Shown here: one piece after another, positions 26,048 to 64,000 of the stretch | How the letters are laid out: each line of letters opens with the position of its first letter | How positions within the stretch are numbered: the first letter of the stretch is position 1 | NCBI GenBank assembly: GCA_905250025.1 | Contig: CAJNOJ010000369.1 | Location: forward strand, 27,037 to 91,036 | DNA length: 64,000 nucleotides | DNA from: Adineta ricciae | Lineage: Eukaryota; Rotifera; Eurotatoria; Adinetida; Adinetidae | Reading direction: 5' to 3' | The notes under the pieces: model-generated | Told to the model about the DNA's origin: nothing | Database searches by the model: none | The model's input: the letters and a program-made list of their open reading frames with translations, nothing else | Position numbers and translations under genes: made by a program

Positions 26048-26246
26048 TAGGAACTAAATAAACATGTTCATTGTCAATCAATCGTTGACCATATGCCAAA
26101 GTAATATTGGAAGATTTAATAAGAAAGAAAATAACTAATACGAACGATTATTTAATAGAATTTGTTGAGTTACATGAAGAATACGAAAGATTGACCAGAG
26201 AACACTTTGACTAGATATTTAGAAGAAAATTTTTTTGATTTTCCAT
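26048..26246 (-). pseudogene. internally deleted GPCR-B fragment (copy 2)
   Basis: Same TM1-TM3 deletion as 4001-4220, plus a further ~25 bp loss in TM4. The ATG (plus-strand CAT at 26244-26246) is still present. Not functional. Confidence 0.78.
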
Positions 26247-33756: not shown

Positions 33757-33790
33757 ATATACATTTTACAGTATTAGCATCATTACGTGA

Positions 33791-41051: not shown

Positions 41052-41216
41052 ATCTATGTCTAACAATGTGAATTTAATGACGAAACTATTCGTGTGAAAC
41101 GGTACAAAATGGTGTAGATGCACAATGCACTTGCAGTATGCACGAAGAAATAACTTTGTCGCAATGATTCTTTGTATAATTTTTGTGATAACAAGAATAA
41201 AAAACAAAATTCAGGT

Positions 41217-42125
41217 TTATATTTTGATTATGACTGTTTTTCTATTTTTCATCAATTTTCGTAATTGAGGATTCACAAACGGTTGGCAAAGGGCGAGAAA
41301 CAGTGCATTTAATGAAGCTGAAATCCATTCAATCCGATAAATATGCGCATCCAGTTGACCACGTGGTGCATAAATGATCAAATCAACAATCGAAGGAAGC
41401 GATGCCACGCTCAGAATCAGCATCACTATCATTATTCGTTGAATAATGAAATATTCTCGTCGACTTCGTTTTCGATAATACACCTTCGATGTTGATATTC
41501 GACGTATTTTGAAAATAATACAAATATAACATACAAACATAACCAAAAGAGGCAAAGCAAATAAAATGAAAATCAAATATAACAATGAATTGAATTCACT
41601 GATCAATGCTGTGCAATAATTTTCATTAGGTATCAGTTGAATACCTTTGAAAATCAGAAGATAAGGCAGAACACTGCCAAACGCAAACAGAATCTGACCG
41701 GGTATGAACACATAGTAATAGATATTCGCTTGATGCATCCATACGTATTCGGGATAGACAATACGAACGAAACGAAAGAATGCTTGAAGTGCACAACTCC
41801 AATAGAGAGCACAGACTGCTGAGTAATATAGATAGGAGCGGAATTGACATAAGAATGAATTATTTTCACGAATGAACTGATAGAAATCTCGCTGTATCGT
41901 TGGCCAATTCACATCAAGTATCTGCAAAGCGCTTTCCACAACGAGCATACAAAGCGTATTTAATGAAAGGATCACTGGTACTTCGATTTTCACTCGTCGT
42001 GAATGAAATTTGATTTGAATAATGCGATATATAATGATAATAGTAAAAAAACATGAGATCAATAAGCATAACGACTCTGCAGTAGTTGAAATTATGTTCA
42101 ATATCACATCGACAGAGATTGACAT
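41217..42125 (-). CDS. GPCR-C: third type of 7TM receptor
   Basis: 302 aa, single exon, start MSISVDVILNI. Seven hydrophobic segments: LCLLISCFFTIIIIYRI, VPVILSLNTLCMLVVE, YLYYSAVCALYWSCALQAFF, YYYVFIPGQILFAFGSVLPYL, LLYLIFILFALPLLVMFVCY, IQRIMIVMLILSVASLPSIV and WISASLNALFLALC followed by QPFVNPQLRKLM (an NPxxY-like end: VNPQL). TM3 ends RFVRIVYPEY. Same general class A-like architecture as GPCR-B (both have a Trp-containing TM4 and a PQ or NP near TM7) but too diverged to be a recent copy. Ligand unknown. Convergent with the transporter; stops 166 bp apart. Confidence 0.85.
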   Translation of the reverse strand: MSISVDVILNIISTTAESLCLLISCFFTIIIIYRIIQIKFHSRRVKIEVPVILSLNTLCMLVVESALQILDVNWPTIQRDFYQFIRENNSFLCQFRSYLYYSAVCALYWSCALQAFFRFVRIVYPEYVWMHQANIYYYVFIPGQILFAFGSVLPYLLIFKGIQLIPNENYCTALISEFNSLLYLIFILFALPLLVMFVCYICIIFKIRRISTSKVYYRKRSRREYFIIQRIMIVMLILSVASLPSIVDLIIYAPRGQLDAHIYRIEWISASLNALFLALCQPFVNPQLRKLMKNRKTVIIKI

Positions 42126-44905
42126 GGAGCTGTTTGACACCGTTCTTATCCTAAAAGATGAAATAAAGAAGATGCTCTTGTCTGACTAAACCTACACTCA
42201 AGTGTTTATAGACAAGAGCTTATGAGCACAGTCTCTTTCAGGCTAGAAGATATAACTGACATTGAGAGTTGGCATGAAAAAGGAAAGGTTTTCTGCTTAA
42301 TTTGTGTGTTTATTAGTAATAAATCGAGGTAGATAGAAGAAGTTCAACTTAATAATGACACTGTATAACGTCTCTTCGAAGAATAGAACTCAATACTATA
42401 CAACGGCCAGATTGTCACACAACGAATTCCATGACAGCAGATGAAATCCCGTGACAATTGACTATACAGCGTATGTGATAATTATAATCAGCATTAATTA
42501 GCCGATCTACCAGATTAGCAACTCGTTGAAAATCAAAGAGAAGAAGCGAAGAACCACTATACTTGATGGAAAAGATTTCTCTCCACAGAAATTCATATTC
42601 GTTCTGAAGTCTGTACTTATCTGAAGAGAGAGATTAGAAGAGCGTTCGTTTGAAAACGAATGCTAACAATCCATCAAATGAACCTACACTTAACGCTACC
42701 TGTCATTTGGCGATGTTATCAATTATCAACCGTCATAAAAACTCTCGTATCGCGTATTGTTTCTTGATTATACGAAAACATCTTCTACGTTTTTATGATT
42801 CGCGTCAGAATTTACATTGCTAGTCGAAACGCGATCGAGAGTTCGAACGAAGAAAAAGTGTGTCGACAAAATAAGGACTTTTGTTCTTTGCTTGGAAACG
42901 TGGTTGAATGCCGAATTTATTATGCGTAAAGAAAAAAAAGGAAAGTCATGAATGAGAATTATTTTCTTTATATCTATTAGTATATTAATAATCATGGTGT
43001 TTCATCGAATTAACGCCCGTTGATATTCTTAGTACTTTTCCACATACGGTCAGGTTCTGTCATCTTTTTTGCTTTGTGAACGCCGGTATCTACACTCTCT
43101 TCCGTTCAACATACCGACGAACTGTGTAATCAGTATGAATGGCTCCTGTAATACGAGCCACGTAGACAACTTAGGCGTTGGTGACGTGTCTAGGGTCATT
43201 CATGGCGGTTTTAGCAGATTAGTCGCAATATAAAAGATCGCATGACGTGTCTCAATGTGACTACTTTTGTTTATGGTTAAGGATATAAGCACATATTCAT
43301 CAGATGGAAGTAATTAGCACTTTTGTGAAACATGATCTAAAAGAGAGCCTTGAAGTTTTTAAAAGCAGAAATGTGGACCCTCAGGGACAGACGCAAGGAT
43401 TCTATGTTGAGGATGCTTTATTTATACATCAAGCTTACCTACACTCACGCTCATTGATCTACATTGTATCCATTGATCTATGAAAATTATCACAGATAAT
43501 TCAGATTTTCGAAATAATGTAAAAACAGAACAATTCTCGATCAGAAATCTTCATTGCTATGATAGGAGCCGATTTATCGTATTTCACATTTTTAATCCCA
43601 CAAGGGATTGTACCAAAAACTTTTCTTTTAAATGGGTACATTACTTTGAAAGTACGAATGTTAGCAGTGTATGTAAAATGTCCTCAAAATAGCATAGGCA
43701 ATACTGTATTATTTAATTCCATCCACAGGATCTGAAATATTTATCACACGTATGTGAACATCTGCGTATGAAAATAATCCGCATTAATCGGTACAGTCCA
43801 GAAGATCAATATAAAATGATAATTCAATGTAGCAACAACGAACTTTATTCTTATTTTGACATTCTATTGATATTGATGAGAGACAAGTAGTATCAAACTT
43901 CAACAAGGAAGTCAAGTATTTGGAACCACTTCAGTCAATTCTATTAATAACATGAAAAATAGTTTCGATTAAACTCGAAGGTGTACCATGAAACGCTAAA
44001 AGATCGAATTTACTCACCCTCATCTATGCTAGTCAAGTCCTTCAATATAAAAGGAGAAGGAAATTCATGTATATACTATCCTACGCACGTATGGTTAAAT
44101 AATAAACTTTCAGCATAATAAAAACGACCTTTTCCATTATTTTTGAAGATTTTAGAAAGCGCACAACGTATATTTTTAGGTGCTAAGTGGATCTCATTAA
44201 CATTCTTTTATTATTTTTTTCTAAGACAATCAATTACTGATTTCAATTAGCCAGGCATAATTTTTCTTTACTTTTCATATATAAAAACAATAAAAACATG
44301 ACTTTAATATCAGGAGTTACGTGTTCGTATCAAGCTGACAATGTTGACATATAGAAAGAAACAAAACTATCTGCAGAACATATGCACGGATAGAACGTGG
44401 TTAAAATGACGACATCGACTAAATTGATTCTTTGCTCCATTCCGATGACGTTCGCATTTTTCTGACGTTCTAGAAAATCTATTACTAGCTTTTCTTTGTC
44501 GTCATGACCATGAAGATATTCTCATGTCTATCTGAAAATGAGAAAGCCTAATACAAAAAACACTTTTCTAATGGCTGACGTGTTTCCTTGTATTTGTCTA
44601 CAGTGTGAAACAACAAATGCAAGATATCAGCGTAAGACCTGATGACGAACAATAGTCAAAGCTCAGACCGGACTCTAGTCTATTCTATTCTAAGAACAAT
44701 GAATATTTGTCCCGTTAAACATCAACACGTTCGTATACCGTTAGGAAATTGTATCAGTACGCCTCGTTTTTGCTACAATTCTCTAAAATACTAAATGTAA
44801 TGATTTAACTTAAGCAAATTGTCCCTTTATCAGAATCCATATGTTTTAGGGGAAACAAGTCATTAACCAAATACTTTCATCAGTTCATTTCACAATGAAC
44901 GACAA
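42126..44905. other. 2.8 kb gene-poor stretch
   Basis: No confident gene. Frames at 42768-42995 (minus) and 43480-43692 (plus) lack domains. One short plus frame preceded by a TATA-like motif is listed separately. No transposon ends were noticed. Confidence 0.45.
43304..43483 (+). CDS. possible short ORF, 59 aa
   Basis: ATG-initiated frame MEVISTFVKHDLKESLEVF..VSIDL, with AATATAAAAG at 43228-43237 about 70 bp upstream in the position expected of a TATA box. No homology recognised, no introns. Could be chance in AT-rich DNA. Confidence 0.2.
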   Translation: MEVISTFVKHDLKESLEVFKSRNVDPQGQTQGFYVEDALFIHQAYLHSRSLIYIVSIDL

Positions 44906-45120
44906 ATGATGTTGACTGCTAAACTGTTTTTCTTGCTTGTTAGTTTTAAATCGTATTTCTTTCAACTAAATCTTTTTCAAAGTGGAATCGAAGATGAAGA
45001 AGTGGTTGAAAACGAACGGCAATCAACTCGATTGTATCTGTTTCTTTTTCTTCTTTCGTTAACCATTCTGATTTTTTATTATTCGGTCACAAGTTCCACA
45101 CGAATAGTTGTGATCAAATC
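44906..45120 (+). CDS. N-terminal anchor of a bdelloid-type membrane protein, cut at an N
   Basis: The frame reads QLNLFQSGIEDEEVVENERQ, then STRLYLFLFLLSLTILIFYY, then SVTSSTRIVVIK and stops at the N (45121). The pattern of an acidic N-terminus, R(Q/I)STRLY, one helix and a Thr-rich exit is a very common start of large uncharacterised bdelloid membrane proteins as I remember them. The rest of the gene is missing. The exact start is uncertain: a splice acceptor (TTGTTAG at 44936-44942) could mark an upstream exon. Confidence 0.55.
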
Positions 45121-45121: not shown

Positions 45122-45606
45122 CATTCGGATATCTCACTTATCGCAACATTCATCTCACTCGTGCTCTTGTAAGACAATATGCTGATCGACAACTGGTTCG
45201 AATGGTTCTCTTTCAGATCATTCTTGTGATCATTAGCTTCTTTCCATATGGAACATACAGTGTGTATAATTTGGTGACGACTGGAATGCCAAAAGATACT
45301 TATCGGTTGTTCCAAGAAGCATTCGCAATAACAGTGCTTAGTCTTGTGCCTTATTTCTACTATTGTGTAAGTGAAAGCATAAAGGAAGGAGAGAGTGATG
45401 AAGGATGATTATTTGTTTAGGGAAGTTGTTATGTATTTCTGATGTCGTCAAGTCGATTTCGTCGATCTGTTCGAAATCAAGTGTTATTCTGGCGAAGACC
45501 AACTCAAATCGACAAAACGATACGATTAACAGCTACCGGTCACAGTTTAAGAAAAGTCGGTGTAGCTGTTCCAACTTTACCCTTCACCATAACTCGTAAT
45601 CAATAG
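45122..45606 (+). CDS. GPCR-A receptor, 3' part (TM5 end to tail), begins at an N
   Basis: Exon 1 remainder 45122-45366 starts FGYLTYRNIHLTRALVRQYA, then TM6 and TM7; intron 45367-45420; exon 2 45421-45606 encodes GSCYVFLMSSSRFRRS and then a third kind of tail, RRPTQIDKTIRLTATG to TLPFTITRNQ. The upstream part is nearly identical to the 29061 gene, but the tail differs after LFW, so this is a distinct paralogue. Together with 1715-2037 it would cover codons 1-107 and ~188 to end of one receptor, leaving ~240 bp unaccounted for. Confidence 0.75.
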
Positions 45607-46255
45607 AATTTCTGAAATAAACGAGCATTAAGTAAATTAGCGTATCTCACAGAAGAGACTAAAATTTGTTTACATGATTGATTGAAACCATATGGCATAA
45701 TAAGGACAATTATTTCTTTTCAATTTTTTAATACCTATCCTTTGCGTCAAGTAAAAACGATAAAAATATACAATGTGCAATAGCATACGAGGTAATATTT
45801 GTAGATGCTGGCAAGATTAATTCATTATAGAGCGCGAAATATATACCCCCAATATGAGGTAAATCTTATGTTTTCACCTGCTCATTATGTCAAATCGATG
45901 ATCGTATTTCACTTTATGAAAATAAAAAAGTATACTTTTTATAGTTGTTTTAATTTTACTGCTAAAACAAAGAAGCACAGTTATTAACTAATCTAGTCTT
46001 TCTTGCGTATATCAAACGCAGACGTTATTATTGTGTCTGTCATTGTTTGTGATCATCAGAAGTTTCACGCAAGACACATCATCATTATAAACTCTTACAT
46101 TTAAAATCTGATAATGACAAATGCACTTCCATATTTAATGAGTTTGATACCAAACGTGCGGTGCGTTTATCGTTCCTGTGAAAAGTTGATTATATCATTA
46201 CACGATGTATGTACTTATAAACCCCTATACATCATTTGTGGCAACTCATCGACTA
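45607..46255. other. intergenic, no gene seen
   Basis: 650 bp of AT-rich DNA. The sequence just before 46256 (GGCAACTCATCGACT) resembles that before 1715. Confidence 0.4.
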
Positions 46256-46912
46256 TGTCTTTATCATACATCAATCAACAAACAACTATCTGTATGCTTG
46301 TTTCTTTCTCGTCTTCTCAACTACTGGATCGTATCGAAAAACATAGTGCACTTTCTATTTCCACATCAGCTCCATTTTCAACATTGTTTACATTGATATC
46401 ACTCTTGATTTCGCGCCTCGCTAGTGCTGGATATGGTATGGATTTTACAGGGATACTGTGTAAAATGAGAGCATTTTTTCCTATTGTGCCTCTTTTAATT
46501 ACAATCACATGCTCATGCTTAGCAGCCATCGACCCATTCGTCGAATCGTCATTATTATCTGATGTATTCAGATATCTTGTCTACAACAAAAGCTCGTGGA
46601 AATATGAATGCAAGATATGCGAACTACGTTCCCTTCTATCTGTTGGTTTTGATTTGTGCCATTCGGATATCTCACTCGTACTCTTGCAGGACAATATGTG
46701 GATATACAGCTGGTTCGAATGGTCTCTTTCAGATCATTAGGTTCGTTTCATATGGGGCACGCAGCGTGTATAATTTGGTCACTGTCAAACTAACAGAAGA
46801 TAGTTACCGACTACTACAAGAAGCAATGACAGCGATAGTAATGAAGGCTATTATGTATTTGTGCTGTCATTCAGTCGCTTCCGGCAATCTGTTCGACGAA
46901 AACTATTATTTT
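46256..46912 (+). pseudogene. older GPCR-A pseudogene
   Basis: Begins MSLSYINQQTTICMLVSFSS and can be followed through several frames: LISRLASAGYGMDF, LLITITCSCLAAIDPF, MNARYANYVPFYLL, then SYGARSVYNLVTVKLTEDSY and LLQEA. There are large deletions in TM1 and TM4 and several frameshifts. Divergence is much greater than among the other copies, so it is an old relic. Confidence 0.82.
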
Positions 46913-47030
46913 AGCTTATTTTATACAATATAGAAGCGTTGTATATAGATGGCGTTAGAGGAGCAGAATTGTATGGTGGTTGTAAAATAACTTGTGATCT
47001 TGGTTTCTTCATATACACATACTTCCTGAA

Positions 47031-48799
47031 ATGACGCTCGAATCGCTGCCCAATGAAGTTTTCTATGGAATATATTTGAATATCTCAATGACATTCATCT
47101 ATTTCATAGCTTTTATGCTCAGAATTATCGTTTTAACGGATTGATTACTTCTGACATGTAGTCGACGATGTCGATTGAATATTCAATCTATATCTAAATC
47201 TGCTTTCCATCAAGTACTCCCGCAGTATTTACCATTCATTATCGATCGAGTGATTTCATTGGTCATTTCCGATGACGATGAAACTACAAATCTTATTGAC
47301 GATTTTCCTTCATCCGATCGATTTCCTAATTTACAATGTTTATCAATGATTCAAGTAAATTCAATCGAAAAACTCAATCAAGCGTCATATTCACATCCGC
47401 TGACACGTTTAACCTTCATTGATTGCTACTCAACGCAGCAAAATGGTCTAATTAATTTAATTTCATTAACAATGTTCGGCATTTGCTTCAACTCAAATAT
47501 TTTTCCTTGCAATATGATATCATCTATAATTCGTTCTTTTCCAATCAATTCAATTCATTTTCATGAGATTCTATCGATTTAATTTCAAAGACTTGATTAA
47601 TCTATTCAACTTGACATCTCGACTTCGTCACTTTCAAGCAACATGTTTTGCCGACGTTGGTGTTGATTCACCAGTGGTCCAGAAAAGCTTCATTTTGAAC
47701 AAAATTGAACATCAACATGTTAGCGTCAACTTTTGGTTTGATTACTCTTCTACAAAACATATCGAATTTACGTCATCTGATCGTTAATACATCGACTGTT
47801 TTCTTAAATGATCATGAATGATAACGAATCACATAAAAACATTCCGATTGTGTACGGAATTCAAATATAATCAAGAAAGTGATGACAAAGAAAAACAAAT
47901 TGATGATTTATTGGATACATTTCGAACCGATTTTTGGCTCGCTGAACATCAATGGTTCGTTCGATGTGAATGGAATTCGACTGACAATGATTCAAATATA
48001 CTCTATACACCTTACTTTATCATTTAGATCGATACTCCATTCAAAACTCAAATCGACAATTCCAAACGATGAAACCTGTTGGTCATATGAATTAGTGCGC
48101 AACTTAACTTTGAAAAATACTAATATTGATAACTGGTGTGTACATCCGATATTTCGTTTTACAAATCTTTCTTCTCTACATATATTGAACTTCCAGCACA
48201 CAGCAACCATTACTCAGTCATTCCGACGCTCAATAGTTTGACATGGTTAACAGTAAGCATCTATGACAACACTGTTGAGTCGGAGTTGCAAACCTTGATC
48301 AATTGAATACCGAATCTTTATAGATTAACATTTGATTTATCATTACCGGATTTATTACCGATAGTATGGAGGATCAGTAACCCATCAGTTCGTCGACTCG
48401 ATCTATTTCGGGAAGCATTATCAAATAACTGCTCTCTTGATACTTCTCAATGTTTAGAGTTGATCAATTCACTACTACGACGTCAATGTGGACTGCTTTC
48501 AATTAGTGTGGCAGATCAATCCGCGACTCCTGATCTTATCAAGAAAAAAATCGAATATTCGTTCGTTGATATATTTATGGGAAGAAGAGAACATCAATCG
48601 TAGTGTCAACAAACAAGAACTTGTTCAATGGTTACAAAATCATTTGCCGTCGAACAGCAATGTTCGTCATGTAGGTTTTTTAACTCATAGAATTCAAATT
48701 TGGATTAATCAATATGCTGAATCCAAAAAAGGATATTCAAGTATTGTTTTTAGATATGCACCGATCAGATTGATCGATCTAGACAGAAAACATACTTGA
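47031..48799 (+). pseudogene. second-type F-box/LRR-like protein, decayed
   Basis: Opens with an F-box-like start (MTLESLPNEVFYGI, then by frameshift FEYLNDIHLFHSF), followed by DRVISLVISDDDET (47245), NLQCLSMIQVNSIEKLNQ, HPLTRLTFIDC, FRTDFWLAEHQWFVRCEWN (47915), HILNFQHT (48185) and the C-terminal QELVQWLQNHLPSNSNVRHV..IQIWINQYAE (48620-48720). This order matches a large bdelloid F-box family in which RIISLRLSDDDET and WFVRCHW are hallmarks. Six or more frameshifts and stops. Its 3' end overlaps the NACHT gene's last ~20 bp tail to tail. Confidence 0.75.
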
Positions 48800-51700
48800 T
48801 GCTATTGTTCGAGAGGTATTTTCATAAAAAATGTCTAGTGAAGGTAAGGTCGGCTGGTTCGGGTTGATTTTTCCGAATAGCAAAACATGAAATACTTGTT
48901 TCAACTCAGAATCTAATTGTTCTGTTGAAAAACGGTGGAACGATTTTTGATGCGACCAAGGATCTTCGATTGCTGTAATAAGGGACTGTCGGCATTCGGT
49001 AACTGAAATTTCATCAATATTGACCAAACGGCAGAGTGTCTTAGCTGCATAGATGCGTTGACAAAGGGATTCAGCGTGCATGAATGACAAGAGTAATTCA
49101 ACTGGCTCTCGGTCTCGCAAAATTTCTATTTTAGAAATCGTTGAACGTAATGAAGAACGAGCAGGATTGGATTCAATACCATCTTGTAGAGCTAATATCA
49201 TCATCATCGATACGTACTCGACTGTTATGTGCTGAAAACTAGCGTAAACATAAAAACACGAAAGCTTTTGTCGGTAATTGTCGGTTTCTCTGTAAGCTTT
49301 GTAAACAGCATCCTTGAAAGATTGTTCGCCGAATGAACTTTGACGAACAACTTGACGAAATTTGTCAGATATTTCCTCGCATAAGTAATCGGCTATTTGG
49401 ATCATTTCATAACGTTGCCATGTATTATTATTCAATGCGTCAAATGTGTGCTGAACAAATGTTCGCAATATTTGTGACTCATGCTCAATAATCCATTTGA
49501 CGGCCTGATGAAAAGGCGCATCATAACCATTTTGATATCCATTCTTCGATAAATAATAGTCGACATTCATGACAAACGACGAATAAGCATCGTCAATTGA
49601 ATACTCTCGTGGATTTTGAATTATATGCTGATTTAAACCCAACAGAGTGGCCTTACGGATCATGAGGTCGGATGAATTCCTGTATATTGATTGCAGCTCC
49701 TTCAGCTCATCTTCTCTGATGGATTGGATTCCAAAATATAACGACCAAAAGCAAGCAATTAAAAGACGTCCGTCTTCAATTGAACCGTGATTATCTATTG
49801 CTTTTCGTATAATATCCCATAGATTATTTCTGACATGATCATCTTCTTGACACCAAATTACAGCTCGCGCAGCAGCAACTCGTGTTTCTGCACTATGATC
49901 ATCATGCATAAGTCGAAATAGAAAATCGAGATACTTGCTCATTTGTTTTCCAAGAAATTCATTGTTGAAACTATGATTTATAACCCATAATAGAAAGGTT
50001 TTGTCGGTTGAACCATCGGAGTTCGACAGATTTTGGAAGATTTTCTGCATATAACCTGCACCATCTAAGCTAATAGTCCCAATTAGGTCGAAAAAAGAAA
50101 TTTGAAGAGGAAGAAGATTCCATTGAGAGTTGCTTGTCTGTGTAGCGTCAAATCGTTGACGTTCGCTTTGCATAATTAGATCGATTTCATTGGAGTAATG
50201 CAGATAAAACGTACAACGTAGACTCTGTTTCACTTGCATAAGCTTTTCCGACGGATATTCATTCCACGTGTTTAGCCATCCGATAATTATGTCTAAGTTG
50301 TTGTGTTCATGTAAGTCTGCATACGTTTGCAGCTTCTTTGATGCTTTTCTTCGAAAGAAATCATCGCTATGATTGAGTAACTCACAGCAAATATGGAGAA
50401 CGTCAGATGTCCAGACTTCGTGTTCAGCGAGCAATATTGCACCATGAAAAGCGAATAGTTTACGTTTCGGATCGGCGTGCCATGGTAACCATTGATTGAT
50501 AATCGTTGAGGTCGATTCCTCGTCTTCTAATTCACTAAAATAGCGTAGCGATTGATTCAGAGCCATTAACTGAGACTCATCGATAACGGACAAAGACAAC
50601 GAAAGAAGATTTGTAATATTTGCGATTATCGTTGAACTTAACATCAATCGATCAAAAATGCTGATGTACTCGTTGAGTTCTCGTAGGAGATCGTCGAATG
50701 GAATGGAAGATTTCGTCGAAGGCGATGCGTCGTTCGTATCAGTAGTACTATAGAACCAGTTCTCGACCAACTGAATGTCATAAGCTATTGCATTCAGATA
50801 CATACATGATGAAAGAACAGCAGAGTTATGTGAGAGGTCAAATGACGATGAACGAAACATATCAGTCAATAAAGCTGAATTGATCTGAAAGACTTGTGTC
50901 AGTGCATTTGTTTCATCCTTCCAATTGGACTGACGTACGAATCGGCATACAATCTGTCGTAAAGAGGAGAAATGTGTTAATGCTTGGCAAACAGCTTGTT
51001 GTTCAGCCATGGAAATTGTTGAAAGGTGTTGAAATACTTTGGAGAGAAATACATATCTATGAGTGGAATTAGTTTTCTCAAACCGCAGCATGTAATGAAT
51101 GAATACCGTGATACAAAGAAGAAAATCTTTGGTATTTGCCTTCAAGGATTTGTTCAGTATATGAAATACTTGATTTTCATATAATGGTATTTTTCGACCG
51201 AAATTTACATGAGAAAGTGCGATAGTCGCATCTAGTTTTCGTAATGGATGATTGATATTTGCAATCATTGATTGAATTTGTGCATGGATCGTTTTGTCTT
51301 CTGTCGAATTAGCAAGAGTTATACCGGCCGTGTAAATTCGTTGGTCATCGGAATCATCACCAGTATGTGTAATTGATAGACACTGTCGTTCTTCAATTAT
51401 GGCCGCTTCGATAGAATAGAAACGGTTTTGTGAATTATTAAATGACCATAATTTTTCCATCAACGACTGAATGAAAGTGACTTTCATTAATGTTTCGATC
51501 AGATATTCATAAAGTTCACCGTTAACCGTCTCAGCCTTTTGGTTAATCATAACACGAAGAAAATTCATTACTTGGTATTTGTTGAAGACTGGTTCGAGAA
51601 TAACAAGTAGAGTCCACAGGCGTAACGAACATAATTCCATGGACGGGATTTGATTTAGAAATTCGAAAATAAGATGCACGAACTCTAAAGATCCATGGTC

Positions 51701-54700
51701 TTGGACTAAATGAGTATAAAGTTTGTGCACGTGTTTTGGAAGATAGGCGATAAGTAGAAGAGCCGGCTTATCTTCGAGCAATTGAAATGGATGTTCTCCG
51801 CGCTTAATCAGTTCTAAATCGTTCTTTTCAAGCTCCACAATATAATTAGAATCTACACAGTCTACTGACGGAATGCAATAAATAAATGATAAAACAGCGA
51901 GATGTATATCATCACCACTCGCAAGAAATCGCTCTTTGTCGAACGACATTGGAAGTTGAAGATTAACATAATGCGTGTGATTCAGTGGATAGGGACGATT
52001 TTTATGCGGACAAAGACCGACACAAACTAGCAGTCCATAAGCATGAGTCAATGCCTGAGCAATCATCAAATCTTCCGGATAATCTTTTGCTTCGATGTAT
52101 CTAGGAATGTCAATTGTATTCTTTGATCTCATGTTGATGTAATAATCGTGCAAATAAATTCGAAGAAGTTTTAGCTGATGTATAGCCAAATGCATAGCGT
52201 TTTGACTCGGATATTGCTCGTATTTTGATGGTGGACTGATGCCGTTCAGACAGAATAAGACAATAAAACTATGTATCAACTTCGAAGATACATCGGTGGG
52301 TTCAGCGTTTATTAGAATTTGATGACATTGATCGATCAGATGTTGAACTGTATTGGTTTTGTGGTCGGAAACATTGAGATAATCAATGAACATCTTGTGC
52401 AAAGACGAACTTCGATGTATGCGCTGACATGAAAAAGTAACTGTTACTGATCGTTCTTTATTTTTTACTAATTCAGTTCTTTTCAGTCCTCCATACAAAG
52501 CTATGATAGCTGCTAAGACGTGGCGATCTGAGTTTGTAACCACATCAGGTACAGTCGACTGCTGACTGCGCGGGTCACAAAATATATGTTTCATTTGTTG
52601 GGAGAAAGAAATCCTACTGCATTCTGTCAAAAATTTTTCTAGATAAATGCTAAATCGCTTTTCAAAGTGGTAGAGATAATCACCAATGATGCTAAGAAAA
52701 TACAAATCGATCCATTTGGAAATTGTTTCGCCCATGGCTAATCCAGGTAGTATTGCTATTAATCTAAGACGATTATCAGCATTACTTGACAAAACATTTG
52801 CCAACCATCGATGAATTGTTGGGATTGGTAAGATCGTCAAAGCGTCGGAGAGCTTGGCTTGAAAGCGACATGTTTCTGGTCCGTCATTATTTCCCGCTAA
52901 TAGTAGATCTAATGCTTTGAAAATGATTGCTTCTGACGGTAAAGTAACAAGGTTCGCCAAAGATTCAACGAATAACAAAGCTCCTAAAGGAGCGTATTTA
53001 TTGCATTGACTATTATATAACACTAAATGATTACAGAAGCGATCATATTGTTCTAAATCCCACTCCGAGCTAGTTTTGCTCAGAGTGAACAGAAGAGGAC
53101 CATGGGCTAGCAGTCGAGAATAGAAGTTATAGCAGCAAACAGCTAATTGTTCAGGTGATAAATTTTTTGTCATGAACGATAAATGAACAAAGTATTCTCG
53201 GAAGCTTGGGTGGAAGAATTCAAAGGTATTAAGATACGGAATGGCTGCTATGCCTGTAGCTTGGCCGAGTTTTTTCGTAAATTCTTCTGTTTTGCATCGA
53301 AGTTGCGGCAAGGATAGAGAGGATTGATTATGTGGGTTTGAATTGTTCCACTGTTTAAGAGAAATCCGACAAAGTGCTTTTAAATCGAATTCATCAATAC
53401 GGCCCGACTTTGAATTCGAATGGATATATAAGGCGAATTGAGAAAGAACGTATTTGAGCAAATCAGTGTCAATGGATGATTGTTGAATAATTAATTCGAC
53501 TATTTGCTCATACAATAATGCTCGTCTATTCGCTAATGCTTCGATGTCTTGTCGAACAGATATAGTGCATAGAACTGACAGGAGACGACAGTTCGATGCC
53601 CATTCTTTCACTTCTCTCTTCGAGTGAAGAGTTTCGCGTAACAGACAAAGACGTTCGCTAAGTTTCTTGTCTAAAGTTGGCGCGACGTTGCTCATTAAAT
53701 TGACTAAATTTGTTTGTACATTAGCATACCATGTGTCGACAAATTCCAACATCTGTTCAATATTCATAGGTAGAATTACATGAGTGCTAATAAGTTGATT
53801 TTGCAACGGGGAAATCTTATAAGCAGCTGCTTGACTGGTAATTATGACTACATTTCCAATCTCTAAGCCTTCAGAATCGTCTGCTTGATTTGTCCACATT
53901 TTCGCCAAGTTGGCATCATCAAAAGCAGAGATGAAGTCTGCTGAAAGCACAAATGTGTCAATAAAATCCTTTATAAGTTTCAAAACTTGATCACGAAGTT
54001 CAACCGTATCTATTGTATCAAGACCGTCTACTATGATCAAAGCATGCCGATATCGAATGAAATCTTGTATAAACTCGATACTATCGTTCGTGTATGGTTG
54101 ATTCTGCCATGTGTGTTGTCCAAAATAATCGAATAGTGTGGCATTTGGATGCTCCTGTAACCATGCAGTGAATTCATTCACACAGATCAAAATAGGTAAA
54201 CGAACAAGACTCGAGCATTTCATTTTGTCATCATCTCCGAATGATACTTGTTCGTGATCATGTGACAAAGCTTGTGCAAACTTGTAGGTCAACCATCGGG
54301 TAAATGTTGTTTTTCCGGATCCCGAATCACCTAGGAGAACAATCCAACGATGATGCTGAAGAATTTGATTAACATGATTATCAGGCACTGAAGTAGTTTT
54401 TTCATCTCTGAGAGGTTTACTGGGAATAAACGAAGTCGATAAAGTTTTATTCGGCATTTGCTTAGAAGATCCAGGAATGTTATTCAATCTGGTACGTAAA
54501 TTTGGACAGGTAAGTGGAATAGGAATACATTTGAGAATTTCTCTCAATCGTTGCCGTTCACTTTCATCGACAGACAAGCCATTCAAAAATATGTCGCTAT
54601 TTTCACAGATATTATCGATGTACAGATGTTTGTGAAATTTCATACATTGATCAAGATACGTGGTGAGTACTGTTGAGTGCTTCTCTTTAAGTGTATGTAA

Positions 54701-55303
54701 GGTGTGTTGATTCTCATTCGCACAATAATATTGGTGCTCTCGTTGTTCTAATTTAAGTTCGTATTCGAGTAGGTCACTGCTGTTGCCATTAATAGAAAGT
54801 TGATAATAGAGATCTTTCTGTTTAGTTAGTACTTGACAAGCTGCAGTATAGAGCGAGTCAAGCTTCCTTGATATCTCGCTGAAAGTAGCACAATAAATCT
54901 TCAACTTGTATAATGTACGTGTTAACAGTCGATAGAAAAGTCTGTAAGGATTTATACGAGGGTCTTCAGTAGTTTGAGTCTGATATTTTCCGTTGTGAAA
55001 GTCTTGATTCAGTGCGTTTTTGAATTTATCTATGTCATTTATAAATGCCCGTACATCGTCAATCGACGTGCTGGTAAAGCGATTAGCTGGTTTAAGGTGT
55101 GGGTATATGACATTGTCTTGCTCGATCAAGGCACAAATACGTAGAAACTCATCTATCAGCAATTTGAAATTTTCATTGGCAATGCTGACCAAGTCTTCAA
55201 TCTCACTTGATCGACTATAAGAGAAGCATCACATATCATTATAATGAAGAAACAAGGTATATTCCACGGACCTGCTGAATTGTCGTGATAGCGAGTGTAT
55301 CAT
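48779..55303 (-). CDS. NACHT NTPase with long HEAT-like C-terminus, 2155 aa
   Basis: Exon 1 55272-55303 (MIHSLSRQFS) joins over a 57 bp intron to exon 2 48779-55214; exon 2 alone has no ATG near its start, so the small exon is needed. Residues ~1-290 are helical with no recognised domain. The NACHT core has the P-loop GDSGSGKTT (~305-313), Walker B LIIVDGLDTID (~400) and a sensor-like VIITSQAAAY (~460), with LCTISVRQDIEAL and FFHPSFREYFVHLSF typical of the NACHT-winged-helix region. The remaining ~1450 residues are helical repeats of HEAT/armadillo type (e.g. AETRVAAARAVIWCQEDD, LQTYADLHEHNNLDIIIGWL). Animal NACHT proteins are cytosolic sensors that oligomerise on danger signals; an immune role is inferred. 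No N-terminal death-fold effector was recognised. Codon frame is open for 6.4 kb, so it is surely functional. Confidence 0.88.
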
Positions 55304-57569
55304 GTTTTGATAATATCACGTACTTATCTCCTATAAGAAATTATCACAATAAGACATGTTTCATAAGTTATTGGTAATATCTTTGATTGTAGGCTATCTC
55401 GGTATTCACTCATTCTATACTTAAAACTGACATCGCACACACGAATCGATCTCAGGTCTGGCAGTTGCAAAAAGACTATAACTAAATTCTCAGCTCGAAG
55501 TAAGCTCTTTTCGAAAGCATATACATAGTGTATGTCGTTTTTGGATAGATCTGAGTATTTATATGAGACAAAATTGGCTTTTTTAAATTATAAATATCTC
55601 AACATAGACAAACGATAAAAGCCATACGAGTATCTCCAGGCGAATCAATCCTAACAGTTTCTGGCACATTCAAAATGAAAACATGTATAATTTATCAACT
55701 CCTGCTATGTTCTTCATGGTAGAGTATAGTTACAATTTGATTAATTTTGCATTTTTAACAGCATTCGGTAATTTTCTTCTAAGAATTTTGGATGTATAAT
55801 TTTATACTGACTTAATTCAGGCTGAATACTTTAATATTGTGTCCTTCTTCTTGATAGTCGTGATTCTTGTGGCGCAAAAGCTTAAACATTTACGATAAAT
55901 GCAGAACAAGAAAAAAACGAATATTTTCATTACCATCGATAACAATATATGTTGGTTTTTTCCGTAATGTCACGTTGTATTTCTTTGCCTTTCATCAGAA
56001 TGACAATACATTAATGACTCATTGTTTATTGTAACGAACACGTCTTCTGGATTTTTCCCCATATGTCTTCCCCTCTCTTCGTACGGTGCAGTAACTGCTT
56101 ATCATGAGGGCTAGGTTTCCATCAATTGAAACTTTACCATATTCATTCGGTTCATATGGTGACAAATACATGAAGTTATCCAACACATTTTCAGACCAAA
56201 ATCACACAACTAGCTGTGATCTCGATGATAATATTCTCACCCTTCTTCGTGAGTTTAATGTCGAAACGAGTGAATACAATAGATCCTATATCAGGCTGCT
56301 AATTTAGTGTCATAAATGTCAAGTCTTTTTTTGTCTCCATCAGCGAAGAACTAAATCGACAATAGTTTTGTTTCGAATCTTTGAATCGTTATGCAGACCA
56401 GATGATCTCCATGTAATGAAACTTCCGGTTTTGATTTCGGCTGAATAATAAAACATAACACGGGTGAGAGATAAAGCTTGGACTTCCAACGAATCTTTTG
56501 TAGTACTCCAGTGTAACTTATATACAAGGCTGTTCTCTCTCATCATAAATGAACTTTCGACAGTTATCTTGGAGTTGATTCGTACTAATTTTTGAGACTT
56601 GATAGAAAGTATTTTTTGTCACTACTAAAGGATTTTGAAATAAATCACCACGAAGATGAATGAATAGTGAGGTTCAACCACAACCAACGAGTGATGTCAT
56701 AATATCGGTACGACGGGTATTCATCAAAATCCATCATATTCGCTCCAATACCGTACTACGTTCCTCTCCGCCATCCACCACGCTACGCACATTTCGATCC
56801 ATTTGAAAAGCTGAGGGATCGAGTGGATGTAATGGTTGCGTACATAGAAATATAATGAAAGAATGTTATGATTTCCTTCGCATGCTTTGAATATTTCAAA
56901 CATATGAACTAATATTTTATGACCGATTATTCTATTAACGTATCATTACTGACATTCTCATGCAATATTTTCCATTATATTGTGACAACCAAATGCGTGA
57001 ACATGAGTATATTTATATTCAGTTTGAATTTAAAAGTATCGCACGTAATTTCTTTCATAAAACGTTTTGAATATGAATATAAACACAATCGTGTCGTAAA
57101 ATAGCCATTACTCTTGTGCTTGAAGAATAGAATTAGTTCATTCCTGCGGCAATTAAATCATCATGCAAAATCAACTCATATTCCTCAGGTTTGGTAGATC
57201 GATGAGGAATATGGGTATCGAGATGGATACGACAAACACACTCAATCTCTCAGCTTTTCAAATGGATCGACACGATCGTATCATGGTGAATACGACAAAT
57301 CCACTCAAATTCCTCAAGCCGACGTCTTGTTGTGTTTTTGCTGGCGTATTGAAGTGATTACCCATGGATAGGATACGGTGATGTCGATACGCATGTTTTT
57401 TCGTTGATCAGGGTGAGCTTATCGTGACGTTCGACTGATGATACCCGTCGTAACGGCCTTATGACGTCTATGTAACCAACAGAGTATTCAGTTAAATACC
57501 GTTGTCGTGTTTGCAAGTTGATTGTGGAATAAATCTTTTTGCATCATCGTTAACTTCTTTGATTACGAC
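55304..57569. other. 2.3 kb gene-poor stretch
   Basis: Promoter side of the NACHT gene, then no supported gene. A 67-codon plus frame at 56104 has no domain. The inverted-repeat element at 56690-57460 is listed separately. Confidence 0.45.
56690..57460. repeat. candidate inverted-repeat (MITE-like) element
   Basis: Outer arms: GTACGACGGGTATTCATC (56705) against GATGATACCCGTCGTAAC (57436). Inner arms: TCGATCCATTTGAAAAGCTG (56794) against its exact complement ending 57271, with the next ~15 bp also largely matching. Inside lie a hairpin (CATATTCCTCA 57178 / TGAGGAATATG 57206) and a direct repeat (ATACGACAAACACACTCAA / ATACGACAAATCCACTCAA). No transposase frame. The nested arrangement suggests a non-autonomous element or a collapsed palindrome. 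Confidence 0.45.
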
Positions 57570-58085
57570 TGGAATATTTTTATCTTATCATTTTGTGTTA
57601 TGGGCTCAATTATTCAAAAAAATTGAAGAAAATGGAGGTTAGTACTTGATATATAACTCGTTATTCTTCTTCGTTTCAATATTAATTATGACAGAATTAT
57701 TTTATTCGTTCATCTGATTGATCCATTTCTTGCGAATCTTTGTTCAGCATTATTTATTATATGTGGATCTACCCGACAACGGTCAAAAATTCGAAAAAAT
57801 AACACTTCTCGAACTCATATTTACAAACAACTCTATAAACATAAACAATTAATAATTAGTCCCATGATTTTACTATTCCTATCATTACCTCATCTTATTC
57901 TCTCATTATCATCTGAATGTGTCGATACTACTCGATATAAATGGTTATTTCTCTTCAGTTATTTCATTTCGTTCATACCGCCGATACTTATCTTTGTTAT
58001 TTATATCTTACCATCGAATTTATACAAGAAATCGTTTGAAAAGTCATGGAAAAAGCTCCTTCAAAGACGACGATATCAATCGTGA
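57570..58085 (+). pseudogene. 3' part of the NHL-7TM receptor pseudogene (copy 3)
   Basis: Homologous to 16312-16815. Starts mid-7TM with FCVMGSIIQKN, then stop, and continues LIDPFLANLCSALFIICGST, SLPHLILSLSSECVDTTRY and LPSNLYKKSFEKSWKK. It retains the copy 2 defects and adds others. The left boundary near 57570 is the edge of the duplicated block, ~110 bp from the inverted-repeat element. Confidence 0.82.
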
Positions 58086-58330
58086 TAATAACAATGAAAC
58101 AAAAATCATACAAATAATGATAAGATTAGATTTGGTGGTTCGCTAAGAATCCCAATACCAACTATAACCATCACATTTTTCAGTGATTTATTGTTATCAT
58201 TGCATTTCATCTTTTGTTTTACGCGCTCGAATGATGTATTACAAATAAACACTGCCATAACATTATATTCGACAGGAATTACGAGAATGTTTTCACCCGG
58301 CTCGATTATAAATTTGTAAAATATGGAATT
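58086..58330. other. intergenic between convergent 3' ends (copy 3)
   Basis: Equivalent of 16788-17029. No gene. Confidence 0.4.
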
Positions 58331-59299
58331 TCAAAGATTAGTGTTCTGTTGAACGGTAACTATTGGATAAACTCTTGTCTTTCGACAATAAACTTGAATT
58401 TGATGATTAATTTGCGGTGTTATATAAATTAATGCTAAACTTAATGTTAAAACACATATGGATATACTTAATACAAGAACGCGATAAAAACAAAAGGCAA
58501 GTTCATTAGTAAAGGCAAGAATGATTAACATAATACTCGTTGGGATACCATAAATACCTAATAGGATAAGAATAAGAATGATACGACGAAAAACCACAAT
58601 GTCTCGTTGTTGAGATCGTTGAATTTGTGAAAGATTTCGATTTAAACTTTGTTTATGTAAAAATTGAGTTACACGAATATAAATAAATGAAATGGAAAGA
58701 AAAGGAATTCCATAAATTGTCAAAATTGAATATGCAATTGTTCGAGAATCATCTTTAGGAACTAAACAAACATGTTCATTGTCAATCAATCGTTGACCAT
58801 GCCAAAGTAATATTGGAAGATTTAATAAAAAAGAAAATAACCAAACTGATGGAATCATTAACCAATACGAACGAATATTTAATAGAATTTGTTGTGTTAC
58901 ATGAAGAATACGAAAGAGACGAAAGATTGACTAAAAACGAAAAACTTTCATTAAATATTTCGAAGAAAAAACAAAATTGATTACTTGTAAAACAAATGAT
59001 TGATAAATAGCTGAAATAAATGTATAAAATATATAAGAATGAATTCGACATATTAATGTTTCTTGTTGATCAGTAAATCGTTTTAAATCACCTTGAAGAA
59101 CTCGAATATTAATTGAGAATGTTAATATACCAAGAATGAATAAAACAAAATAATTATTTGTACAAAGAAGTAATTGAATATCAAAGAAAGTTTTTTGTCG
59201 AAGTAAAATTAAGAATAAAATAATCATTGTGATGATTGTACCAATGAAATTGATTATTAGAGAAATTAGATTTAGAAGAAAATTTGTTTGATTTTCCAT
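58331..59299 (-). CDS. GPCR-B 7TM receptor (copy 3)
   Basis: 304 aa, exons 58985-59299 and 58331-58930 with a 54 bp intron. The same seven hydrophobic segments as 17030-17993; about five substitutions in the 175 C-terminal residues (e.g. MIPSVW for MIPLVW, IDNEH for IDSEH, VTVQ for VTLQ) and several in the N-terminal exon (LRQKTFFDIQ, RFTDQQET). No breaks. Both GPCR-B copies being intact while the paired GPCR-A genes are truncated suggests GPCR-B is under constraint. Confidence 0.85.
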
Positions 59300-60523
59300 T
59301 TGAAATGTAAAAAGCAAAAAAAAGGATAAAGTAGAACCGGTTTTATATAGAAAATTTTAATTATCGAAAGTAAGGTTTTATCTTCATCTTAATATAAGAT
59401 TTTATTATTAACATTTCTTTTACGACTCATCCTCTTCACACTCGCATCTTCAAGATAAGAAGTGAAGGGTATGTTCAGAAAGTTCATACTATTTTCACAT
59501 TGTTTCATTGCGTAGAAATGTTTGAAGAGTTAAACTTCATCTTTATACAAACAAAATAAGAATTTTGTGTATTCAAGTCTCTCTGAAATCGAGTATTGCA
59601 CTGTATTAGAACTAAAAACAGACAAAATGCATCATCATTTTCTTAAGAACTATTTTCACATACATAGATTTTTATTAAAACATCTATTTTCAAAATGAGT
59701 CTTTTATAAAATCTAACAGATGCAAAATATGCGACGTGTGATATAAACAAAAACTGAACAGCAGCGGCGTAACCAGGGGCAGGGCAAATGGATAATTGTC
59801 GAATTCATTTCGACCTTCGCCTATTGAGAATTTTAGCTATTGAAAATTTTTTATCTACTTTTCGGTAAGATATTAATTGATCTTTTTCTTCCATTTGAGT
59901 TTTACGCGCAATTTTCGTATAAGAGTAACTCAGAAGAAACTAAATTTCATTAAAATAATCTCATCTTGGTTGATTTTCAACTACAAAACAGATAACTAAT
60001 AACCGGCTTTTTCCCTCGTTTTTACATGAACATGATGCTTAGCTCATTGAAATTTGAAAGATTACGCTAATCGTCCGAGTTTCATATATCTCATGAAAAC
60101 AACACCATTTTACGTCTTTCTTTGCTTTTTGTATGTTATCAGTAGTTTCGTATGTCCGTCAAGAAAATCCTTTCTCATCTACTAGTCAGTGTTTTTCGAT
60201 ACAAGCAAAACTTGCTGATTGACGTAAAAAACGTGATTGCGCTACTGCTAGATACAACATCTCCACTGATAAGGTGATGTTACTAGTTCTCGGACTGAAA
60301 AATACTCCAAGTCCTTAAAAATATTTTTATCTTTCCATCTGTATTTTCAATTTGTTGGCTCTATGACATGTGTCATCATTTAGAGTCTTTATACTGAAGA
60401 TTCTATTTTGAAGAACTTACTGTCAAAAATTTACAAGGGTTTTTCTCTGAGAAAAATCTTGTTTTAGAAAGATAAACGTTTTCTACTAAACCATCAAACA
60501 TCATTTATCTTACTGTCTCTACC
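59300..60523. other. GPCR-B/GPCR-A spacer, copy 3
   Basis: 1.22 kb; lacks ~150 bp relative to copy 2 (joined near 60362 at CTATGACATGTGTC). No gene recognised. Confidence 0.5.
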
Positions 60524-60802
60524 ATGCTTTTGTCATATATCACTCAACAAACGACTATCTATGTTGGTTGCTTTCTCGCTTTCATTGGTATCCTTGGCAA
60601 CTCAATGAATATTCTCGTCTTTTCAACTGTTCCGTCCTATCGAACAACATCTTGTACGTTCTATTTTCTTATCAGTTCTATCTTCAACATTGCATACATC
60701 GTCAGTGTCGGATTCAGTATTGTTCCTGCACGAACATCTCTCGCATGGTGCAAATTCAGACAATTCTGCTTGTATGCGCCTCTTCTGATCGCAGTTACTT
60801 AA
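60524..60802 (+). pseudogene. GPCR-A fragment, TM1-TM3 only (copy 3)
   Basis: MLLSYITQQTTIYVGCFLAF to APLLIAVT then stop, 92 codons. An in-frame deletion removes INLISRI at the end of TM2, and the gene is truncated before the IDQYF motif. It is the counterpart of the shorter fragment at 19349. Confidence 0.85.
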
Positions 60803-61165
60803 TTAGTTACATTCTCTGACAGACTTAATGATACGAAAAATATATTCAACATCATTGAACACATGAGTATCATTTGTTCAGCTTTTATCGTTTACTAGTG
60901 TAATTTGGTTTTAAATATCGACAACGTGATAGTTCCAGGATCGGAATTTTGGCGAAAAGGCAGCTGTTTCTATCGAAACTAAATGAACTCCGTCGTTTAA
61001 TAACAGATTTCGTTCTTCTTTTATTATGACTACAATTCGAAGAATTTGACGGAAGAAAATAATCCGCGAGCACATCTCAATGCATACAAGAAATAAATAA
61101 ACATCGACACACATAAGAAGAACTCGTTCGATTGAAAAAATCCCTTTCTAAAATGAATCATTTAA
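60803..61165. other. spacer, partly absent from copy 2
   Basis: About 150 bp here (60803-60956) are missing at 19454 because of the deletion there. Minus-strand frames to 61114 (NCSHNKRRTKSVIKRRSS) are unassigned. Confidence 0.35.
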
Positions 61166-61830
61166 TTATTTATTGCGCTCATAAAATAGCACAGGCATTT
61201 GACGAGAGTTGTTATTCAAAGAATAAACTGATGAATCATTGAATTCATGCCATTGATTAGTACATGGATGTTTGCCTTGGGTGATAGAGTGACCTGAGTA
61301 AGCCATGTCACTACGATTCGATACACCAAATAGATTGAAACTCGCGACAGACCCTAAACATACGTAAGACTATTGAATCACTTCTCTTAAACGGCAGATT
61401 ACCTTCATAACTTTCGGACGCCACATCGATTAGATCATTAAGATTGAGATCGTTGATTGGCAAGTCCACACGAATATTCAATTTCGTTTGACTGCGAGTT
61501 TGTGAAAAACGTTTTCGATGAAGTACGAGAACATCCGGACACTTTCTGAATCAAGAACTTGTTCGTACATCATCGTTTCTGTTTATACTTTGTACACAGA
61601 TAAAAGAACAATTTCGTCGGATGATCCGCATGCATACTCTTCTCCTGCCGGCTTTTCATTTCCATCCAAATCTTCTTTGCTTATAAACAATTGAATGCAT
61701 TCCTGAACATTGCTCGAATCTTTCGCTGGTATTATTGAACGTTCATCGGCTAAAGTGGATATTTAAATCATCTACAAGAAGCAGAAGATGTATTTCAGAT
61801 AGTTTTCTTTTATTCTTTTGTGAAAATAAA
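61166..61830 (-). pseudogene. ubiquitin-specific protease C-terminal part (copy 3)
   Basis: Same exons as 19673-20330 but less decayed: RKCPDVLVLHRKRFSQTRSQ (closer to VLVLHLKRFS), SGHSITQ retaining the Gly-His of the catalytic GHYTA box, and MPVLFYERNK. The stop before the RKCP block remains, and no N-terminal Cys box is present, so it is still a pseudogene. Confidence 0.78.
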
Positions 61831-61944
61831 CAACAATGCAATCATGGATATATTTGTTGACCGCTTGTGTTTTCTAGAAATATGTATGTGAACAATGTGT
61901 TGTAAAACTTGGATCGCTTACTTACGATCAATGAAGCGAAAAAA

Positions 61945-62197
61945 TCATGTTCCACGAAGAACCATGAATTTTTTCAATGTGTTGATAATTTCAGTCTCGA
62001 ATTTGGCTTGTTCGAGATAGAATTTCGATTTGTCGTTTGTTTGTATGTCAATATTTACATTCTGAATCATTGTTTGATGCGATTTGGCTCTTTGCTCCAA
62101 TATATTTTCGGCATCTTTTAAGCTATCGAGGTATTTTGAATTTTCTTACGCTAATATCGGTAATAGTAAGCGTACGAAGGAACGCTTCGATCGACAT
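61945..62197 (-). pseudogene. small helical gene, splice acceptor deleted (copy 3)
   Basis: Counterpart of 20452-20734. Exon 1 MSIEAFLRTLTITDIS and exon 2 LKDAENILEQRAKSHQTMI to KKFMVLRGT are kept, but a ~30 bp deletion between two ATAGCTTAA repeats removed the acceptor TTTCTGTAG, leaving a ~27 bp intron, too short to splice normally. Confidence 0.6.
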
Positions 62198-62526
62198 TTT
62201 GGGTATATCTAGGTGAAAAAAGAAAGAAACTATTTATACTGTGGCCTGCAAAGCTATTAACATATCTCTCCGTTCTTTTAATGTGTTTTCCTTTAGATGT
62301 GATTACTTTTCTTTGTTTTCCTCATATCTATTCCTCGAGAATATTTTGATCACGTCCGTTTTCGTTAATGAACAGAGTCCATGGCGATGGATGGTCTTCC
62401 CAACATTTCATACCTCAGTCAGATCACTTTGTGATTGTGATAACCTCGTCGAGTTAACCGTAGAAAATCTCGCAGAGAAAAAACACATTTTCCTTCTCAA
62501 TCGAATAAATATCGTCTTTTACTTAC
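62198..62526. other. spacer between small gene and eL20 remnant (copy 3)
   Basis: Equivalent to 20735-21125. No gene recognised. Confidence 0.35.
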
Positions 62527-62863
62527 TTGACTTTCAAACCATCAAAGTGTGTCACATATCATAGACGACATTCCGTAGCAGACAAACGTTCAACCTTTGT
62601 GACTTGAATGGTCGACGATCGAGCATGATGTTTCACGGACATATCACAATAATATTGTGTGATAACTAATTTTCATGCTGAATCTCGATATTCTTGGTAC
62701 ATCTTATGAGTATCAGGTCGAGAATCATATCGAAGCCAAACATAACCCTCTTCACCACTATAATGATTTATGCTAGTTGACCAACTAGCGTTTGAAAATC
62801 TCACCAGCGCTCTTCTTCAATGTTCCAGCTGACATAAAAAAAAGAATAGAAACGAGATGTCGC
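62527..62863 (-). pseudogene. ribosomal protein eL20 (RPL18A) pseudogene (copy 3)
   Basis: As 21126-21440, but keeps GYVWLRYDSRPDTHKMYQEY, the piece deleted from copy 2. It shares the stop after ATECRL and gains a stop after YRDSA. Confirms the family assignment and the ancestral inactivation. Confidence 0.85.
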
Positions 62864-63821
62864 TTAGATGATTAGTTGTTTGTTCTCTCCAGAGATGAGA
62901 ATAAAATCTAGAATTTCAAAGCTGAAATGAAATTCGAACGGGAATGAATGGACAAAAATGTGATTGGTTAGAAGCGTGTGTCCTTCTTGATTGGAGAGAG
63001 AGAGGTTGAAAAGTATAATCACCAAAATGGAAGCGCGACCATTGAATGATGTACTTCTCTTATTGGAAAAGACCAAATCATCAACTTGTGGAATGAAAGC
63101 TTTAGGCCATCATGTACTCGCACATAACCCAACAGGACTCATATCTTCATTCGTTCAATAGATCGAAATGACAATGGCTTTTAAAAATGACTTTGCAGAA
63201 GGTTCTTGATTGCTGCTTCCATCGTTTCTATTTAATCCTATTCGGTTGAACAGTCAGTCGGCCAATAAGAGAAATTCGTGCTTTCTTGAAATGTTTCAGG
63301 CGGTGGCGTAGCACACACATCTCCTAGTGCTCATATACGTCTCAATGAGCAACGATCATTACGGGCACATGCGCAATATTCATTGAGAAACAACTGCTGA
63401 GTCAACATCCACGGTGGTGCATTAAGTATTAAAGATATAAAAAATATTTATTAATGTCGTTCGAACGAATCGTTTGTATATGCGTCACGTATTACATAAG
63501 CAGTAAAATCATTGGTGACCGATCTGAAACCATTTTGTATATAATCATACATCACATTCATCCTCAAGAACGAAGTGGAAGGAAAACACGACGGTTATCA
63601 AACAAAAGTTTCATTGTGTTCATTTCGTATACTATCAACATGGCTAGCTGTTGAACTTCAGCAAGAGAAAACTTTATTCAAATGAAGCAAGAAAAGATGA
63701 TGAATATTCATATCGATTGGTTCATTCTTAATTGATCTAGTGTATATCTTTAGTTCACCATAGAACATATCGACGCCGTCGGTGTGAACATGTCATTGTT
63801 CCTGTAGACGACAAAGAGGAA
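62864..63821. other. upstream region of the F-box gene (copy 3)
   Basis: Equivalent to 21441-22169 plus ~200 bp at 62915-63100 not present there and a short piece near 63666-63690. No certain gene. Confidence 0.4.
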
Positions 63822-64000
63822 ATGGAAAGAAATATGTACATAAAGAATGACAGAAATTCATCCGTACATACAGACATGAACGAATCTAATAATAATCTAC
63901 TTCATCTACCCGATGAAATCTTCCTCATCATTTTCAAAGAACTCACCATGCTTGATGTGTTCTCTTCACTTGTGAATGTTGATCGGCGTTTTCATCGACT
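63822..64000 (+). CDS. F-box protein, 5' end, runs off the window
   Basis: First ~59 codons, nearly identical to those at 22170 (MERNMYIKNDRNSSVHTDMN, LLHLPDEIFLIIFKELTMLD). Intact as far as visible; probably the complete gene continues beyond 64000. Confidence 0.82.
   Translation, partial: MERNMYIKNDRNSSVHTDMNESNNNLLHLPDEIFLIIFKELTMLDVFSSLVNVDRRFHR

Follow-up and report, generated by a model that had tools for sequence, protein, structure and literature searches.

Interleaved contigs of two haplotypes as the probable source of an apparent gene array on an Adineta ricciae scaffold

Does a scaffold of the rotifer Adineta ricciae on which the same run of genes recurs hold a real tandem array, or have contigs been set in the wrong place during assembly? 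The question arises at the right-hand end of contig CAJNOJ010000369.1 (C369; 91036 bp) of assembly GCA_905250025.1, where we analysed a window of 64,000 nucleotides (C369:27037-91036, forward strand; GC content 35.3% by base counts) and searched the genome of 130.46 Mb in 1033 contigs. Within the window, copy 1 (2039-11199) and copy 3 (57571-64000) each repeat part of copy 2 (16313-33475), a region with genes for G protein-coupled receptors (GPCRs), an F-box-like protein and a RING protein. Position 64000 was the end of the whole scaffold, with nothing to its right. We conclude that C369 very probably consists of interleaved contigs from two haplotypes of one chromosomal region, misordered in assembly, and that there is no third copy.

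Single N's stood at 2038, 11200 and 45121 in the window and at C369:20470 to its left, where C369 also had a run of 20 N's. The single N's separate piece A0 (C369:1-20469), piece A' (C369:20471-29073, ending at window position 2037) and pieces B, C and D, with copy 1 being piece B, copy 2 lying in piece C and copy 3 in piece D. The first version of the region is called H1 and the second H2. The features needed for the argument are listed below, in window positions unless a contig is named; C158 is another contig of the assembly.

1-2037, plus strand: right end of A', a second version of A0 (C369:7620-15865), 93% identical and collinear
2038: single-N join of A' and B, judged wrong; 31-bp seeds showed no exact sequence common to the two ends
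2039-11199, plus strand: piece B (copy 1), a second version of 23726-33475, with a single N on each side
11007-11199, plus strand: overlap of B with C158:246697-246889 (minus strand), 193/193 bp identical
11200: single-N join of B and C, judged wrong; B carries on in C158, not at 11201
11201-45120, plus strand: piece C, part of H1, containing copy 2
22113-23913, plus strand: gene for the F-box-like protein in copy 2, spread over several open frames; its Pfam F-box-like match (E 8.2e-4) falls short of the family cut-off
44948-45120, plus strand: overlap of C with C158:236605-236777 (minus strand), 173 bp with 1 mismatch
45121: single-N join of C and D, judged wrong; the end of C overlaps C158, and D opens with the second half of the gene in which A' breaks off
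45122-48795, plus strand: start of D, a second version of A0 (C369:16105-19671), 87-90% identical and collinear
57571-64000, plus strand: copy 3, the end of D and of the scaffold, a second version of 16313-22348

The sequence-only reading of this stretch had held that copy 3 matches about 16310-22348 and ends in the F-box gene, and alignment agreed: 57571-64000 matched 16313-22348 in blocks of 79-95.5% identity, the lowest of them within a GPCR unit. For copy 1, the blocks aligned with 23726-33475 were 87-96.5% identical, and short stretches near 4.6-4.8 and 6.2-6.4 kb stayed unmatched. Copy 3 followed by copy 1 does reproduce the order of 16.3-33.5 kb without the F-box middle, as had been proposed, since only 22349-23725 (1377 bp, the middle of the F-box-like gene) had a partner in neither copy. 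These matches were collinear over kilobases, far exceeding chance. Copies 1 and 3 together are most likely the second haplotype of the copy 2 locus and not a further tandem copy, which the earlier reading had not seen. Pfam matches were to 7tm_1 GPCRs, granulin, RING and an aldo/keto reductase fragment, the last at the site previously described as a Kv-beta pseudogene.

The right end of B shows where this piece belongs. Its last 193 bases were the last 193 bases of C158 on the minus strand, and from there C158 246889 to 236832 ran parallel to 33281-43380, its collinear blocks (82-92.5%) being interrupted by short unmatched stretches; the opening bases of C past the N at 11200 had no such relation to the right flank of copy 2. 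Because B ends as the C158 tip and C158 continues the second version of C, B stands between wrong neighbours, and the earlier suspicion that the contig at 2039-11199 was misplaced is thereby supported. B thus has the properties of a misplaced haplotig: it was homologous nearly throughout to 23726-33475, bounded by N's on both sides, and had a better neighbour elsewhere. Beyond a gap of 52 N's (C158:236778-236829), C158 went on as the end of C. A further piece, E, began at C158:205975 beside a single N at 205974, about 30 kb from its overlap site; it was identical to C158:236657-236777 over 121/121 bp and matched the end of the C158 tip over 265 bp with 3 mismatches. As E overlaps both, it bridges the tip to the sequence that C meets, and is probably itself misplaced in C158. 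The two versions share this right flank, C and E both overlapping C158 near 236777, and the next kilobase of C158 (1 kb tested) was single copy, the 7 other matches listed all being at 66-68%.

The duplication reached further than the window, and the 27 kb to its left were also involved. A' followed by the start of D ran collinear with A0 apart from a loss of about 240 bp between them, which parallels D followed by B with 1.38 kb missing; A' broke off within a GPCR gene, about 240 bp short of the point at which D starts. Left of 23726, the homology partner of B was the F-box-like gene and not a GPCR, which bears on the join at 2038. Further left, the first 121 bp of A0 were exactly C583:16365-16485, next to a single N at C583:16364. 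C583:1-5214 was a 90-91% version of A0 2000-7255 that stopped about 365 bp before the starting place of A', and C583:6225-7424 was a 96% version of A0 1-1200. C583 was ruled out as a shared left flank, as both versions lie within it in succession (94% identical over the 915 bp tested).

To compare possible arrangements, A', D, B and the C158 tip were placed in all 24 orders, with orientation fixed, and chained against A0 plus C. The most collinear chain was A'-D-B-tip with 44159 bits (33,249 aligned bp, 91.0% identity); the next best order scored 34387, and the best with B before D 33222. The earlier claim that copy 1 belongs to the right of 64000 therefore stands as regards order, while the exact join of 64000 to 2039, and with it of D to B, would be the one that collinearity suggests.

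Exact 31-bp end seeds were also used to look for overlaps at all 12 ends that the N's create in the six stretches of C369. At the four single-N joins, neighbouring ends had no common exact seed among the stretches compared; the two stretches flanking the 20-N gap did overlap. At that gap, left of the window (C369:24603-24960), a 169-bp stretch on both sides was 99.4% identical, as in overlapping contig ends left unmerged. The overlap of the end of C with C158 escaped the search owing to its one mismatch. SSPACE is understood to write a single n between contigs thought to overlap. B began with 220 bp that copy 2 shares without a mismatch, and D began with sequence found unchanged in two GPCR copies of C (149 and 132 bp). 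The end of D, too, differed little from copy 2. Exact 121-bp overlaps suggest assembly by a de Bruijn graph with k near 121; a final k of 121 is given for 'maxhap' assemblies in an extract of a 2021 study, an extract that does not state the scaffolding method for A. ricciae (PMC7943196).

In the arrangement that we propose, H1 would comprise C583 (16365-42691, reversed), A0 (C369:1-20469) and C (11201-45120), and H2 would comprise C583 (1-16363, reversed), A' (ending at 2037), D (45122-64000), the missing 1.38 kb, B, the C158 tip (246889 to 236830) and E, after which both would enter C158:236777 downwards. The two versions would be alleles. Homologs about 5-10% apart would assemble as separate contigs, and ambiguous links among near-identical GPCR copies may then have let the scaffolder chain both haplotypes in one line.

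Sequence divergence was evaluated as dS (synonymous substitutions per synonymous site) in stop-to-stop frames by a simple Nei-Gojobori count, giving 21 rows. Quoted here are seven clean position-matched pairs, two F-box pieces, GPCR-b and RING against the C158 tip; the rows not used were one 10-codon piece (dS 0), a second granulin match of 29 codons (dS 1.59) and eight matches between non-matching GPCR positions (dS 0.048-0.423). Between copies 3 and 2, three GPCR frames gave dS of 0.086, 0.093 and 0.133, with identities of 90.1, 97.0 and 93.4%; values for the frame 16314-16784 are rough, its alignment having 4 gap positions and its partner one stop. Copy 1 against copy 2 gave 0.136 for GPCR-A, 0.116 for an unnamed membrane (transmembrane) protein that had no Pfam match, 0.111 for granulin and 0.121 for RING, with nucleotide identities of 95.3, 94.6, 94.5 and 95.2%, respectively. 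Across the seven clean pairs, dS was similar for copy 3 and copy 1, and coding identity was 94.5-97.0% in five (divergence 3-5.5%) and 93.4 and 90.1% in the other two. Coding differences here come close to those published for A. ricciae homologs, for which excerpts of earlier studies give a median divergence of 4.55% (PMC5916493) and a heterozygosity of 5.5% (PMC7953838). Over the whole chain, non-coding sequence included, divergence was about 9%, above the coding differences.

Set against two haplotypes of one region are a number of results, several of which concern the following features (strand given where assigned).

4130-5335: GPCR unit of copy 1
17900-19460: GPCR unit X
26200-27760: GPCR unit Y
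48782-55228, minus strand: nSTAND3/NACHT NTPase frame, 2149 amino acids stop to stop; Pfam nSTAND3 E 1.4e-6, NACHT 5.3e-5, below cut-off
56686-57473, plus strand: dispersed repeat of about 790 bp adjoining the start of copy 3; repeated elsewhere in 4 full-length copies (92-94%) and in several partial copies
59210-60800: GPCR unit of copy 3

Between the end of D and the start of B no overlap was found, nor does one show A0 next to C, an adjacency that H1 presupposes. The left side could not be traced to one shared flank because C583 holds both versions. The search of the genome contigs for the missing 1377 bp gave no match that resembled an allele; relatives of the F-box middle were found at 80-87% on C75, C282 and C484, together with a 102-bp match at 75% on C596. 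C484 was tried and rejected as the continuation of copy 3: its base 1 falls at the 22350 position, yet its identity to the end of copy 3 was 87.6%. Among position-matched pieces outside the seven clean pairs dS was uneven, at 0.047 and 0 for the F-box pieces, 0.022 for RING against the C158 tip (67 codons) and 0.345 for GPCR-b, from a region of crossed relationships. In that region, the copy 3 unit at about 59.3-60.7 kb shared 89.1% identity with 26.2-27.8 kb and slightly less, 86.5%, with its positional partner; the copy 1 unit at 4.2-5.3 kb shared 89.4% with 18.0-19.5 kb and 87.0% with its own partner. Informative sites numbered 56 and fell in patches: at 39 of them X went with the copy 1 unit (and Y with that of copy 3), while 10 sorted by version and 7 by position. 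The GPCR gene split over A' and D (1714-2037 and 45122-45498) had 5/324 and 7/377 mismatches to the copy 2 gene at 29060-29999 (98% identity), and stood farther from its positional partner in A0, with 15/324 and 16/377 mismatches (about 95-96%). We read these relationships as exchange of GPCR sequence between positions by non-allelic gene conversion; chimeric contigs are another conceivable source.

The middle of D adds to these difficulties. By blastn (word size 7) and tblastx, 48796-57513 had no counterpart in A0 16000-20469 or in window 11201-22400, and for 48900-56685 no other DNA match was listed in the genome, so that the homology of H1 and H2 is not continuous. Either the homologs truly differ at this place or A0 and C do not adjoin in H1. 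The 2149-amino-acid frame could be specific to one homolog. The start of C carried a frame for an IIGP GTPase and a weak NHL-repeat frame, and a tentative possibility, which we would not favour at present, is that the homologs have different defence-type genes at one place (the nSTAND/NACHT frame in H2, the IIGP GTPase and NHL-repeat frames in H1) and that this, together with GPCR exchange between positions and homologs, marks the locus as a haplotype block of high divergence that owes its shape to non-allelic gene conversion. Near its ends, the dispersed repeat beside copy 3 bore inverted repeats, imperfect and about 30 bp long. Piece C opens (11201-11684) with sequence that matched dispersed repeats on many other contigs.

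Two other explanations would each account for part of this evidence. The contigs might be misplaced while the two versions are an old segmental duplication on one chromosome, two loci >54 kb, and not alleles. Allele-like divergence alone would fit a duplication of the same age equally well and cannot tell the two apart, and a middle of D unlike the place expected for an allele, the cross-related GPCR units and a left flank not closed on one shared sequence all sit comfortably with duplicated loci. We nevertheless regard a segmental duplication as unlikely, since both versions enter the same C158 sequence near 236777, where only one copy of a tandem duplication would adjoin, and since coding divergence is close to that published for A. 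ricciae homologs. The scaffold might also be correct as it stands, with A0, A', B, C and D forming a real array on one chromosome, in tandem homologous blocks as once reported for Adineta vaga. This is the order in the deposited scaffold, and passages of the published comparison describe linked homologous blocks in the genus (PMC5916493). Such an array is highly improbable here: the ends of B (193/193 bp) and C (172/173 bp) overlap C158, at odds with their scaffold neighbours; the four single-N joins lack a common exact end seed; A'-D-B-tip is more collinear with H1 than any order that places B ahead of D; and an N interrupts the step from copy 1 to copy 2 (11200) and again from copy 2 to copy 3 (45121), so that the copies do not form a contiguous tandem array. 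Misordered contigs of two haplotypes are therefore preferred.

Linked homologous blocks on a scaffold have been interpreted as an indication that bdelloid rotifers have long evolved without meiosis. As reported in parts of the published comparison, Adineta assemblies have homologous blocks on one scaffold in tandem, with 2 linked blocks in A. ricciae, both tandem, and many collinearity breaks in Adineta span scaffold gaps, for some of which Nowell and colleagues suspected scaffolding errors (PMC5916493). C369 resembles these linked blocks in having homologous blocks on one scaffold; unlike the cases in those passages, it is resolved here piece by piece, with end overlaps that show placement, in an assembly (Ar_ARIC003) that is probably later than theirs. 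As in haplotypic duplication, as an excerpt on that subject describes it, alleles kept as separate contigs mimic gene copies; unlike there, the haplotigs here are also interleaved inside scaffolds and mimic a tandem array (PMC10548655). The locus is a worked example of scaffolding errors already suspected and not a new kind of feature. With end overlaps and collinearity, the arrangement of C369 can be restored to two collinear versions of one region, and caution is needed when gene copies are counted or tandem arrays called across single-N joins in GCA_905250025.1. Three scaffolds were seen to mix both versions (C369, C158 and C583).

Two further single-N joins had misplaced or doubled haplotype pieces, one in C158 (E, 205975 and up) and one at C583:16364. 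A further pair of F-box loci was seen at C75:239589-243910 and C282:27707-30682, 85-98% alike and about 80-84% identical to the F-box locus here; C282 was without the F-box middle, at a single N, and the pair is possibly a second homolog pair (ohnologs). Within piece C, a tandem-repeat stretch occupied 36998-37773 and was present in the C158 tip as well.

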